From Nocardiopsis sp. MG754419 (GTDB taxonomy: Bacteria; Actinomycetota; Actinomycetes; Streptosporangiales; Streptosporangiaceae), in assembly GCF_018207095.1 (NCBI RefSeq), contig NZ_QOCZ01000006.1, forward strand, positions 1 through 64,000: a DNA stretch of 64,000 nucleotides, written 5' to 3'. Position numbers and translations under genes: made by a program. The notes beneath the pieces are model-generated. The model was not told the origin of the DNA. It made no database searches and saw only the letters and a list, made by a program, of their open reading frames with translations. Below are positions 24,552-27,996 of this stretch, in pieces (positions within the stretch are counted from its first letter, which is position 1; the number at the start of each line of letters is the position of its first letter).

Positions 24552-24953
24552 TCAGGCGCTCGCCTCCTCCTCCACGACCAACGGGTAGACCCCGTTCTCG
24601 TCGTGGACCTCACGCCCGGTGACGGGCGGGTTGAACACGCACAGCACGCGGAAGTCCGTCTTGGGGCGGACCGTGTGCTTCTCGTGGCCGTTGAGCAGGT
24701 AGAGGGTGCCCGGCGTGATGATGTGCTTCTCGCCGGTCTCCTCGTTGGTCAGCTCGGCCTCACCCTCGATGCAGTGCACGAGCTCGACGTGGTTGGCGTA
24801 CCAGAACGTCGACTCGGTGCCCGCGTAGAGCACGGTCTCGTGGAAGGAGAAGCCCACCTTCTCCTTGGCCAGGACGATGCGACGACTGCGCCAGTTCTCG
24901 GTCTTGATGTCGGCGTCGGTGTCGCTGATCTCGTCCAGACTGCGAACGATCAC
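24552..24953 (-). CDS. ectC: L-ectoine synthase EctC
   Basis: Cyclises N-gamma-acetyl-2,4-diaminobutyrate to ectoine, the last step of compatible-solute synthesis. 133-aa cupin, the usual length. Conserved EctC stretches include [31 protein letters not shown], the metal and substrate region [18 protein letters not shown] and [11 protein letters not shown]. The GTG at 24953 follows AAGGAG. It lies 117 bases after ectB, separated by a strong hairpin. No ectoine hydroxylase gene (ectD) follows it in this window. Confidence 0.96.
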
Positions 24954-25070: not shown

Positions 25071-26339
25071 TCAGGCGGGCTGGGAGCTCTTGACGGCCGC
25101 ACGGGCGGCGTCGGCCATGATGTCCAGGCCCGTCGTGAGCTCCTCCTCCGTCGTGGTGAGCGGCGGCAGGAGCTTGGCGACCTCGTCCTCGGGACCGGAG
25201 GTCTCAAGGAGCAGACCGCGGTCGAAGCACTCGGCGGCGACCCTCTTGGCGATGCCGCCCTCGGCGTCGAAGGCCAGTCCACGAGCCAGACCGCGACCGC
25301 GGATGTGCGCGCCGAAGTCGGCGTGCTCGGCGGCCATCTCGCTCAGCCGCGCCTCGACCTTGGCGCCCTTGGCCAGGGTGGCCTCGGCGAAGGCGTCGTC
25401 GCTCCAGTAGCGGCGCAGGGCCTCGGTTCCGGTGACCATGGCCGGGTTGAAGCCGCGGAAGGTGCCGTTGTGCTCACCGGGCTCCCACACGTCCAGCTCG
25501 CGCTTGAACAGCGTGAGCGCCATCGGCAGGCCGTAACCGCTGATGGACTTGGACAGGGTGACGATGTCCGGGGTGATGCCGGCCTCTTCGAAGCTGAAGA
25601 AGCGGCCGGTACGACCGCAGCCCATCTGGATGTCGTCCAGGATGAGCAGGATCCCGTACTCCTTGCAGAGGTCGGACAGCCCGCGCAGCCACTCCGCGCT
25701 GGCCACGTTGATGCCGCCCTCGCCCTGGACGGCCTCCACGATCACGGCCGCCGGGGCGTCCAGGCCACTGCCGCTGTCCTCCAGCAGGCTGCGCAGCCAC
25801 AGGAAGTCCGGGGTCTGGCCGTCGAGGTAGTTGTCGAACGGCATGGTCGCCACGTGGTCCAGGGGCACGCCGGCGCCGCCGCGCTTCATGGAGTTGCCGG
25901 TGACGGCCAAGGCGCCCAGGGTCATGCCGTGGAAGCCGTTGGTGAAGTTGATGATGGTCTGGCGACCGGTGTACTTACGGGCCAGCTTCAGCGCGGCCTC
26001 GACCGCGTTGTTACCGGCGGGGCCGGGGAACTGGACCTTGTAGTCCAGTCCTCTCGGTTTGAGGATGATCTCCTCGAACGTTTTCAGGAAGTCGCGTTTG
26101 GCCGTGCTGTAGGCATCGAGGCTGTGGACGATGCGGTCGTCCGTCAGGTAGTCGACGAGCGGCTTCTTCAGTTCCGGGTTGTTGTGCCCGTAGTTGAGCG
26201 AACCGGCACCGGCGAAGAAGTCGAGGTAGGGCTTGCCGCTCTCGTCGTAGACGTGTGCTCCGACCGCCTTGTCGAAGACGACCGGCCAGTTACGGCAGTA
26301 TCCGCGGACTTCGGACTCGATGCGCTGGAAGGTCTCCAT
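25071..26339 (-). CDS. ectB: diaminobutyrate-2-oxoglutarate aminotransferase EctB
   Basis: PLP-dependent class III aminotransferase that makes 2,4-diaminobutyrate from aspartate semialdehyde and glutamate, the first dedicated ectoine step. 422 aa, typical. Conserved elements are DFFAGAGSLNYGHNNP, PGPAGNNAVEAALKLARK, EAVQGEGGINVAS, the PLP-contacting LILDDIQMGCGRTG and the Schiff-base lysine in TLSKSISGYGLPMA. The ATG follows AAGGA. The gap from ectA is 91 bp. Confidence 0.96.
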   Translation of the reverse strand: METFQRIESEVRGYCRNWPVVFDKAVGAHVYDESGKPYLDFFAGAGSLNYGHNNPELKKPLVDYLTDDRIVHSLDAYSTAKRDFLKTFEEIILKPRGLDYKVQFPGPAGNNAVEAALKLARKYTGRQTIINFTNGFHGMTLGALAVTGNSMKRGGAGVPLDHVATMPFDNYLDGQTPDFLWLRSLLEDSGSGLDAPAAVIVEAVQGEGGINVASAEWLRGLSDLCKEYGILLILDDIQMGCGRTGRFFSFEEAGITPDIVTLSKSISGYGLPMALTLFKRELDVWEPGEHNGTFRGFNPAMVTGTEALRRYWSDDAFAEATLAKGAKVEARLSEMAAEHADFGAHIRGRGLARGLAFDAEGGIAKRVAAECFDRGLLLETSGPEDEVAKLLPPLTTTEEELTTGLDIMADAARAAVKSSQPA

Positions 26340-26430: not shown

Positions 26431-27033
26431 TCAGTCGTCGGAGTCGACGTCCGTCGGCCCGAAGGGGCCGATACGTACGAGGTCCTCGGGCTCGTGTGGC
26501 TCGTCGCCGTCGGCCGGGAAGTGCTCCTCGGTGAAGAGCGGGCTCCACAGCGCCTCGGCGTCCCGGTCCCGTGCGAAGGACCCGAAGAGGGCGCGGGAGG
26601 CGGTGTTGTCCGGCGTGACGGTCGCTTCGAGGTACCGCACACCCTGATCGGCGAACGTGTCGCCGATGAAGTCGAGCATCCGGCGGGCCAGTCGCTGACC
26701 GCGGTACGCGGAGTCGACGGCGACCTGCCAGAGGAAGTAGGTGTCCGGGCTGTCGGGTCGGACGTAACCGGTGACGTAGGCCGCCACTCGTCCGTCGGTG
26801 TCCCTGGCCACGACGCTCGTCGCGGCGAAGTCCCGGCACCACAGTGTGTAGGCGTACGGAGAGTTGACGTCCATCCCCGTCTCGCCGGCCAACCGCCACA
26901 TGTGCGGCCCGTCCTCCGGTGAAGGATGGGTGAGGCGCACGCCCTCGTGGCCCGCGCCCTCGGCGGTCCGGGAGTCCTGGGCCCCGACGTCGTTTCGGTC
27001 GCGTGCTGAGAGGTTCGTTCGTAGTTGTGGCAC
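26431..27033 (-). CDS. ectA: L-2,4-diaminobutyrate acetyltransferase EctA
   Basis: GNAT acetyltransferase that makes N-gamma-acetyldiaminobutyrate using acetyl-CoA. Hallmarks are DVNSPYAYTLWCRDFAATSVVA, YFLWQVAVDSAYRGQRLARRML (the acetyl-CoA pyrophosphate loop) and EATVTPDNTASRALFGSFA. The start is uncertain. The GTG at 27033 gives 200 aa but has a poor ribosome-binding site and sits inside a repeat that looks like an operator. The GTG at 26940 would give 169 aa, nearer the usual length, but still with weak initiation signals. First gene of ectABC. Confidence 0.92.
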   Translation of the reverse strand: MPQLRTNLSARDRNDVGAQDSRTAEGAGHEGVRLTHPSPEDGPHMWRLAGETGMDVNSPYAYTLWCRDFAATSVVARDTDGRVAAYVTGYVRPDSPDTYFLWQVAVDSAYRGQRLARRMLDFIGDTFADQGVRYLEATVTPDNTASRALFGSFARDRDAEALWSPLFTEEHFPADGDEPHEPEDLVRIGPFGPTDVDSDD

Positions 27034-27059
27034 GTCGAACGAACTTAGCGAACGAAGTT
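27012..27059. promoter_or_regulatory. repeat cluster at the ectA start, possible operator
   Basis: CGAACGAACTT (27036-27046) and CGAACGAAGTT (27049-27059) are direct repeats with a 13-bp period. An inverted copy, GGTTCGTTCG, lies at 27012-27021. The cluster straddles the annotated ectA start and is the sort of array a repressor dimer binds. No regulator gene of the EctR type is present in the window. Confidence 0.45.
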
Positions 27060-27090
27060 CAAAGGCGATTCACGCCGAATCCGCGGACAT

Positions 27091-27115
27091 GTTTGGAAGA
27101 AAGAGGGGCGGGTAT
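27091..27115 (+). promoter_or_regulatory. SigB-type promoter match
   Basis: GTTT (27091-27094), 15-base spacer, GGGTAT (27110-27115). This fits the Streptomyces SigB stress promoter pattern GNNT-N14-16-GGGTAC/T exactly. It reads rightward, away from ectA and toward whiB, about 600 bases upstream of that gene. Confidence 0.45.
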
Positions 27116-27577
27116 GGCTCGTCTATTTAGCAGCTGACGACCGCCTTGACCTGCACCTTCGGGTGACGCGCGGTGGTGGCCGAACGGCCTGGTCACGCCC
27201 ATCTCATCAGGGGGTTCGGCGGTGGCGGAGGGGTCTGCTCGCCCGGGGCGGGCACCCGTCTCCCGATGGACCATCGACAAGCGCCGGGGTCAAACATAGA
27301 GCCTCCGGCGGCGATATTAAGCGTGTGTTAAGTCACATCAATTCGGTGGAAAGCTCGCGACATAACACCCCGGAAGGGTCGCATCGCACGTCACACGGTA
27401 CGCGTTCGTTTCTTGAGAACCAGCCTTACGCAGCAAAAATCGCCACCCCCGCAGGGCGCGCGGACGATCACCAGCCCGCGCCCCGCGCACGCCTCGCACG
27501 CGGCGCGACCCGGGCCGGGCGACCCTCGTCCTCGCCGAACGTCCTTGATGATTTGCGGATTTTGGAGCAGACTCTGC

Positions 27578-27605
27578 GTAGTACGACCTCATGTAGTACT
27601 ACAAT
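27578..27605 (+). promoter_or_regulatory. TACAAT -10 element with GTAGTAC repeats
   Basis: A good -10 hexamer TACAAT (27600-27605) has no matching -35. Instead two GTAGTAC copies (27578-27584 and 27593-27599) precede it, the second within the palindrome GTAGTACTAC. This arrangement suggests an activator- or repressor-controlled promoter for the WhiB-like gene. Confidence 0.4.
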
Positions 27606-27732
27606 TAGTCGCATCGCGGTGCCGCAGTCACGGAAGGTCCTACCCCCGGCTACGGCCACGCGACCACGAATTTCGCCGTCCCCACCGCGGCAACTCCGGT
27701 GGGGGATCATCGACCAGGGATCGGAGGCGCTC

Positions 27733-27996
27733 GTGAACCGCCTGTATCACGACAGTGAGGACTGGGTCCAGCAGGGGAACTGCCGCTCGTACGACCCTGA
27801 GATCTTCTTCCCGGTGAGCAGCACCGGGATCGGTCGCGTCGACACGGAACAAGCCCTCGCCGTCTGCCGCAGCTGTACTGTTCGCCCGGAATGTCTGCGG
27901 TGGGCTCTTCGCGCCGGTGAGGCGCACGGAGTCTGGGGTGGGACCACCCCCGAGGAGCGTCGCTACATGCGCCGCGAACTCGTACCGGCCGGCTAG
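27733..27996 (+). CDS. WhiB-family iron-sulfur transcriptional regulator
   Basis: 87 aa. The four cluster-ligating cysteines are Cys17, Cys45, Cys48 and Cys54 (C-x27-C-x2-C-x5-C), followed by the Wbl signature HGVWGGTTPEERR and a basic C-terminal tail (RYMRREL). Wbl proteins carry a redox/NO-sensitive [4Fe-4S] cluster and bind the principal sigma factor. The GTG at 27733 follows CGGAGG at good spacing. I cannot assign it to a numbered WhiB class. It is flanked by ectABC and a copper-related pair, and is terminated by a strong hairpin. Confidence 0.9.
   Translation: MNRLYHDSEDWVQQGNCRSYDPEIFFPVSSTGIGRVDTEQALAVCRSCTVRPECLRWALRAGEAHGVWGGTTPEERRYMRRELVPAG

Follow-up and report, generated by a model that had tools for sequence, protein, structure and literature searches.

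The bipartite element at 27091-27115 of the window (the whole stretch of DNA analysed, 64,000 nt) appears, from comparison of genomes, to belong to the ectoine genes and not to the neighbouring whiB-like gene: with a probability of about two in three we regard it as an activator-type site located about -58 to -81 in the ect promoters, and a lineage-specific site of this type is the best explanation of its behaviour. In the genomes compared it keeps its orientation and a near-fixed phasing to the ect core promoter, is present at ect loci where no whiB is found, and occurs elsewhere in exact form no more often than a control pattern.

On the + strand the element (GTTTGGAAGAAAGAGGGGCGGGTAT) reads GTTT-N15-GGGTAT. 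The initial annotation, which saw in it a SigB-like promoter pointing at whiB, was right as to letters, spacing and strand, and also as to the exactness of the match: the consensus published for SigB homologues, applied here as GTTT/GNNT followed by GGGWAW, GTTT and GGG being 14-16 nt apart, is fitted (PMC8346170). No other GTTT-N14-16-GGGTAT match exists in the window, for which shuffling gives an expectation of 0.03 (present in 3 of 100 shuffles). Its description as lying in a lower-GC region is only mildly true, because GC in 200-base windows differs little between those over the element (0.60-0.67), the ectA gene (0.68-0.72) and whiB (0.64-0.68). Read towards the ect genes, the element becomes TACCC-N15/16-AAAC, its inner spacing being 15 or 16 depending on the locus. 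The + strand match starts 58 nt upstream of the ectA start; the half-sites, neither inverted nor clear direct repeats, are about two helical turns apart with their centre near -70. The TAAATA of an adjoining AT-rich box stops 9 nt ahead of TACCC in this direction, and the box would coincide with the start region of a rightward transcript.

Table 1. Features of the ect-whiB region in window coordinates
Feature	Position	Strand	Remarks
ectC, ectoine synthase	24552..24953	-	PF06339 and NF009806
ectB, diaminobutyrate-2-oxoglutarate transaminase	25071..26339	-	TIGR02407 above cut-off
ectA, diaminobutyrate acetyltransferase	26431..27033	-	TIGR02406 above cut-off; start GTG 27033
ectA -10 hexamer TAAGTT (TAnnnT)	27042..27047	-	kept at fixed distance from element
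Conserved stretch TTGAACTTCGTTCGC just upstream of ectA -10	27048..27062	-	alignments
Conserved bipartite element, ect direction ATACCC-N15-AAAC	27091..27115	-	about -58 to -82 of ectA
AT-rich box GCTGCTAAATAGACGA (ect direction)	27119..27134	-	partly conserved in alignments
whiB-proximal promoter-like TTGATG-N17-CAGACT, then repeats GTAGTACGAC, GTAGTACTAC (palindrome TGTAGTACTACA)	27545..27603	+
whiB-like gene	27733..27996	+	PF02467; start GTG 27733, divergent from ectA

ectA was found in every member of a genus set of 40 Nocardiopsis genomes, defined by database grouping (two carry the names Streptomonospora nanhaiensis and Glycomyces fuscus), and the element stands upstream of it in 39, always with N15. 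GTTT-N15-GGGTA is present at 38 of the genus loci; one (L017) has GGGAA, and the locus scored as missing the element (L019) reads GGGGA and is without TACCC. The half-sites are nearly invariant and the 15 inner bases variable, with a mean pairwise identity of 0.40 in the genus. A second set took in other genera: 46 genomes whose ectA match is strong, 40 collected first and six added later, and 43 of them carry the element at ectA. It is present at 38 of the first 40 loci, with N15 in 30 and N16 in eight, and in five of the six added genomes, the sixth (G129) having N17 and about 53 nt; G114 and G170 are without it at ectA. The strict motif TACCC-N15/16-AAAC occurs at 38 of 40 loci in the genus and again at 38 of 40 in the family; shuffling gave on average 0.12 of 40 (maximum 2) and 0.11 of 40 respectively. 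In the opposite orientation the motif occurs at none of these ectA loci. This conservation bears out the view of the sequence as a regulatory site.

Among 80 named ectA loci the element together with a -10 was found in 46, all of them within L152-L199 (46 of 48), which represent Nocardiopsis, Streptomonospora, Allosalinactinospora, Actinomadura, Spirillospora, Murinocardiopsis, Sphaerimonospora and Actinoallomurus, with one record labelled Glycomyces fuscus, and bins. None of the 32 loci L200-L231 (many Streptomyces, with Kitasatospora, Nocardia, Saccharopolyspora, Amycolatopsis, Glycomyces and others) has the combination, the motif being absent within 300 nt; one of them, L221, has a stray TTCCC form without a -10. 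Because the named loci L152-L199 partly recur in the unnamed sets, the counts from the two were kept separate and are not summed.

It is conservation across genomes that confirms the element as real and not a chance match, the single-genome count alone being near background. In its own genome the exact pattern has six matches, against one for the reversed control; besides that at ectA they lie in 16S rRNA, in a cinA frame (Pfam CinA) and at ectD, and two are N14 matches. A further regulon, as read from these additional exact matches, was rejected, though a sigma-B regulon of sites further from the consensus may exist. The looser GTTT-N14-16-GGGTA has 22 matches, those at ectA, ectD, rRNA and cinA included, against 12 for the controls. 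The 40 genus genomes together hold 115 exact N15 motifs: 22 at ectA, 34 at ectD, 40 in cinA-like coding sequence and 19 elsewhere, the ect sites being assigned by position and the cinA-like ones by spacer sequence (one checked, PF02464). The reversed-pattern control, likewise for exact sites only, gave 19 in all. As a separate observation, the exact GTTT-N15-GGGTAT inside the cinA coding frame (L006, G000:C457:10971-10995) is recurrent in the genus and lies upstream of an HTH-type ORF, which may be ClgR-like.

Ect genes and whiB as neighbours of the element

In the genus ectD is separate from ectABC, being for example about 130-150 kb away in G001, G010, G021 and G034, and all 40 genus orthologues have a second copy of the element upstream, oriented the same way; it is found also at four of four further ectD copies with 64-67% identity. 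Searches of the 600 nt upstream of other ectD genes found it at none of seven distant genus paralogues examined, at none of six other-genera copies apart from ectABC (of eight such copies), and at none of 11 sampled operonic copies. In two genomes of one genus (G060 and G114; L232 and L233) ectA and ectB are about 3 and 5 kb apart, and the series of element, 43 nt, TATGTT, 8 nt and GTG remains 0.5-0.6 kb upstream of ectB in both; ectA has the element in one genome of this pair and is without it in the other. Sharing by separately located ect genes (ectA, ectD and ectB), as would be expected of an activator site, is thus what we find. The ect genes of N. gilva are reported to respond to 15% NaCl by increases of 5.3-fold (ectA), 7.4-fold (ectB), 7.6-fold (ectC) and 22.9-fold (ectD) (PMC5884947).

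Most genus ectD upstream regions (L100-L129) carry in addition a box, CCCATATAGTAT, about 150 nt upstream of ectD, which stops 8 nt ahead of TACCC and resembles either an additional -10 directed at ectD or a third component of the element.

The initial annotation placed whiB, or an unannotated RNA over the next 600 bases, in the osmotic stress regulon; the link to osmotic stress genes is supported, the proposed targets are not. Judged from its distribution, the whiB-like gene is not likely to be the target of the element, from whose expected transcript start (27121-27126) the gene's own start is about 610 nt distant. It is divergent beside ectA in all 40 genus genomes and present beside ectA at 27 of 40 other-genera loci, all 27 of which carry the element, neighbouring genes having been compared in the first 40 of these loci. 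A 2-kb search found no whiB at the other 13, of which 11 keep the element, L073 and L096 being without it. The nearest called gene at 33 no-whiB loci with the element is tandem with ectA in 27, divergent in five and uncalled in one; these numbers are approximate, since the loci draw on both sets with at least four contigs counted twice, and the ORF calls, made from base composition, are rough (L090 and L195, the same contig, gave different answers). The tandem gene is often prolyl aminopeptidase (one checked, TIGR01249), and at no-whiB loci a transcript from the supposed promoter mostly would run antisense towards the upstream gene. The element accordingly stays with ectA, ectD or ectB in the absence of whiB. 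The WhiB protein itself, considered as the one that requires the element, was rejected, close orthologues (E <= 1e-25) being missing from many element-bearing genomes.

A second argument against whiB as the target is that it has promoter-like sequence of its own: TTGATG-N17-CAGACT ends 160 nt ahead of its start and is followed by paired GTAGTAC repeats. At the genus loci TTG-N20/21-CAGAC was found in 36 of 40, the paired repeats in 40 of 40 and the exact palindrome in 32 of 40; the paired repeats are present also at 33 of 36 other-genera loci checked (some contigs twice), the other three being without whiB in the stretch examined. Repeats and palindrome, at 27578-27603, lie close to where transcription from the proximal whiB promoter is expected to start, and have the look of an operator bound by a protein that regulates this whiB.

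Distance to the ect core promoter

The ectA -10 hexamer has the form TAnnnT, reported as consensus for the -10 of S. lividans leaderless genes (PMC8079986), and follows the element after 43 nt in 39 of the 39 genus ectA loci that have one. Upstream of genus ectD the gap is 43 nt (18) or 44 nt (12) among 30 loci and likewise 43 or 44 nt at 10 further loci. Among 38 family ectA loci with the element it is 43 nt in 26 and 44 nt in nine, with single cases of 42, 45 and 53, so that TAnnnT stands at 42-45 nt in 37 of 38 and at 43 or 44 in 35; because offsets were tested one after another (43, 44, 42, 45, 53), some choice is built into these counts. In the five added other-genera genomes the gap is 42 or 43 nt. 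Exceptions are L092, with 53 nt, and one of two ectA copies in G090, without TAnnnT at 40-47 nt. Among loci with the element, a GTG or ATG comes 7-8 nt after the ectA -10 at all 39 of the genus and all 38 of the family, in the genus invariably GTG, and because the start codon follows so closely ectA is probably leaderless.

The length of the gap hardly shifts while its sequence diverges: mean identity over its first part is 0.65 for genus ectA and 0.43 for family ectA, and mean pairwise identity is 0.32 for genus ectD (17 loci). That the length is conserved where the sequence is not suggests that the element and the polymerase at the ect promoter are in helical phase. Orientation to the ect -10 is constant and distance nearly so, as expected of an activator site. 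No TTGACA was seen by eye at normal -35 spacing from the ectA -10, and the promoter scan lists no promoter there.

We envisage a putative, osmotically responsive DNA-binding protein that would occupy the two half-sites, centred near -70, and activate RNA polymerase at ect promoters lacking a plain -35, ectABC and ectD being thereby induced together. An activator acting at these promoters would explain the joint salt induction of the ect genes. The likeness of the element to a sigma-B promoter would, under such an activator, be coincidental or reflect a shared half-site preference.

Alternative readings and known regulators

Several observations tell against an activator site. The match to the sigma-B consensus is perfect, spacing included, and GGGTA and GTTT are what sigma-B homologues are reported to read (PMC8346170); inner spacing that varies between 15 and 16 is more usual in sigma promoters than with rigid dimers; there is no inverted and no clear direct repetition in the half-sites, and a candidate binding protein was not found. 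Nor does every ect gene have the element: other-genera ectD away from ectABC (0/6) and distant genus paralogues (0/7) are without it, there are the locus exceptions L019, G114, G170, G129, L092 and G090, and at five of the 33 no-whiB loci the nearest ORF call is divergent. The main rival is a sigma-B-family promoter divergent from ectA and ectD, at a back-to-back distance to the ect promoter fixed by a shared bound activator or by interaction of the two polymerases; its transcript would be short, antisense or without coding function, the whiB-bearing clade being a possible exception. We consider this unlikely, though far from negligible: it keeps its weight because GTTT-N15-GGGTAT perfectly matches the consensus given for S. 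coelicolor and B. subtilis (PMC8346170) and a spacing of 15 or 16 is tolerated, and the genome has three SigBFG-type sigma genes that reach the family cut-off, with a fourth near it. A divergent promoter would, however, need no fixed phase to the ect -10; exact sites outside the ect and cinA-like places are in no excess (19 against 19), the excess of the looser pattern is small and includes the sites already named, no loose match lies in the regions examined around seven of the ten SigBFG-like sigma gene matches (L047-L053), and most no-whiB loci have no sense gene downstream. More doubtful again is the conversion of a sigma-B-type promoter into a control element: stress-sigma polymerase would bind reversed, its phase fixed, behind the ect core promoter and would govern that promoter by contact or by divergent transcription, not by transcribing ect. 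If true, this would tie ectABC and ectD to the general stress sigma factor in Nocardiopsis, Actinomadura and their relatives.

That a sigma-B promoter expresses whiB itself under osmotic stress, through a 5' leader of about 610 nt, we think improbable. The site points towards whiB, and the adjacency of the two genes is constant in the genus and frequent outside it, but the element persists at 11 of 13 family loci where whiB was not found, and at ectD; whiB has its proximal promoter-like sequence and repeats; and 27135-27285, which the leader would traverse, is poorly conserved in the genus. The same poor conservation weighs on the proposal that the promoter serves an unannotated small product, RNA or protein, encoded within 27122-27730, which is very unlikely in spite of conserved genus blocks at 27195-27207 and 27288-27370: Rfam gave, over the bases past the element, one match far below the gathering score; RNAalifold found a single 3-bp helix in 27116-27290 (-1.9 kcal/mol), albeit better than shuffled columns (z -7.6); and a minus-strand ORF from ATG 27298 (MFDP...) was rejected, its frames breaking to leave 6 to 87 aa across the 40 genus loci. 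A chance match without function can practically be dismissed; single-genome counts near background (6 against 1, or 22 against 12 for the looser pattern) would allow it, but it is already contradicted by the strict-motif counts and by the absence of the element from the 32 ectA loci of other groups.

How ectoine synthesis is switched on osmotically is only partly known, and in the open-licence PMC literature we found no paper announcing an ect element of this kind. SigB homologues are credited with the consensus GTTTAA-N12-14-GGGA/TAA/T in B. subtilis and with a looser -35 in S. coelicolor (PMC8346170). The element shares with the SigB promoters of these species GTTT, GGGTAT, the preferred spacing and the link to osmotic stress (PMC8346170); unlike them, it points away from the ect genes, at a near-fixed distance to their -10, is nearly invariant, and is not accompanied in the 40 genus genomes by any additional group of exact sites. 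Nor is it placed, as a SigB promoter should be across relatives, upstream and in sense of a controlled gene, the upstream gene being called tandem at 27 of 33 no-whiB loci and the element facing away at ectD. A 2018 review lists SigB control as verified for the Virgibacillus transporter gene ectT and as untested for ectABC (PMC5924519), and a salt study of S. coelicolor describes SigB involvement as potentially limited (PMC13011467).

MtrA, GlnR, EctR and CosR do not obviously account for the element. MtrA is described as activating the Streptomyces ectABCD promoter osmotically from an upstream site with the consensus GTnACC-n5-GTnAC (PMC13189361); the two would be alike as upstream sites for osmotic activation, but by eye the element does not resemble this form, and the direct repeat was not seen in the element consensus. 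Repression of ectABCD in Streptomyces is reported for GlnR (PMC10704036), and the GAAAC form of the element resembles one half of the GlnR box given there; the other half, GTnAC 11 bp ahead of AAAC, is absent from alignments judged by eye. EctR-type repressors likewise control the ect operon through an upstream site, described as A/T-rich and pseudo-palindromic with 2 bp between its two 8-bp half-sites (PMC5924519), whereas the element is asymmetric with 15-16 bp between halves. With the -10 and the probable start, the element offers an exact DNA bait for finding the regulator in actinomycetes that bear ectoine genes; it is also a warning that a perfect sigma-factor consensus can mislead unless relatives are compared.

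Further features of the ectA-whiB gap

The divergent arrangement of the ect operon and one whiB subfamily (26431-27996) hints at a functional link between them. In this genome the whiB frame is open far upstream (27163-27996, an ORF of 277 aa); the extension is probably not real, because stops close that frame in many genus genomes. About 80 bases in the middle of the gap, 27288-27370, are strongly conserved in the 40 genus genomes, their conserved letters being GGTCAAACATAGAGCC ... TTAAGCGTG.GTTAAGTCACATCAATTCGGTGG ... GACATAAC. No conserved ORF was found in this block, which contains a direct repeat, TTAAG-N6-TTAAG, present at only four of 36 other-genera loci checked.
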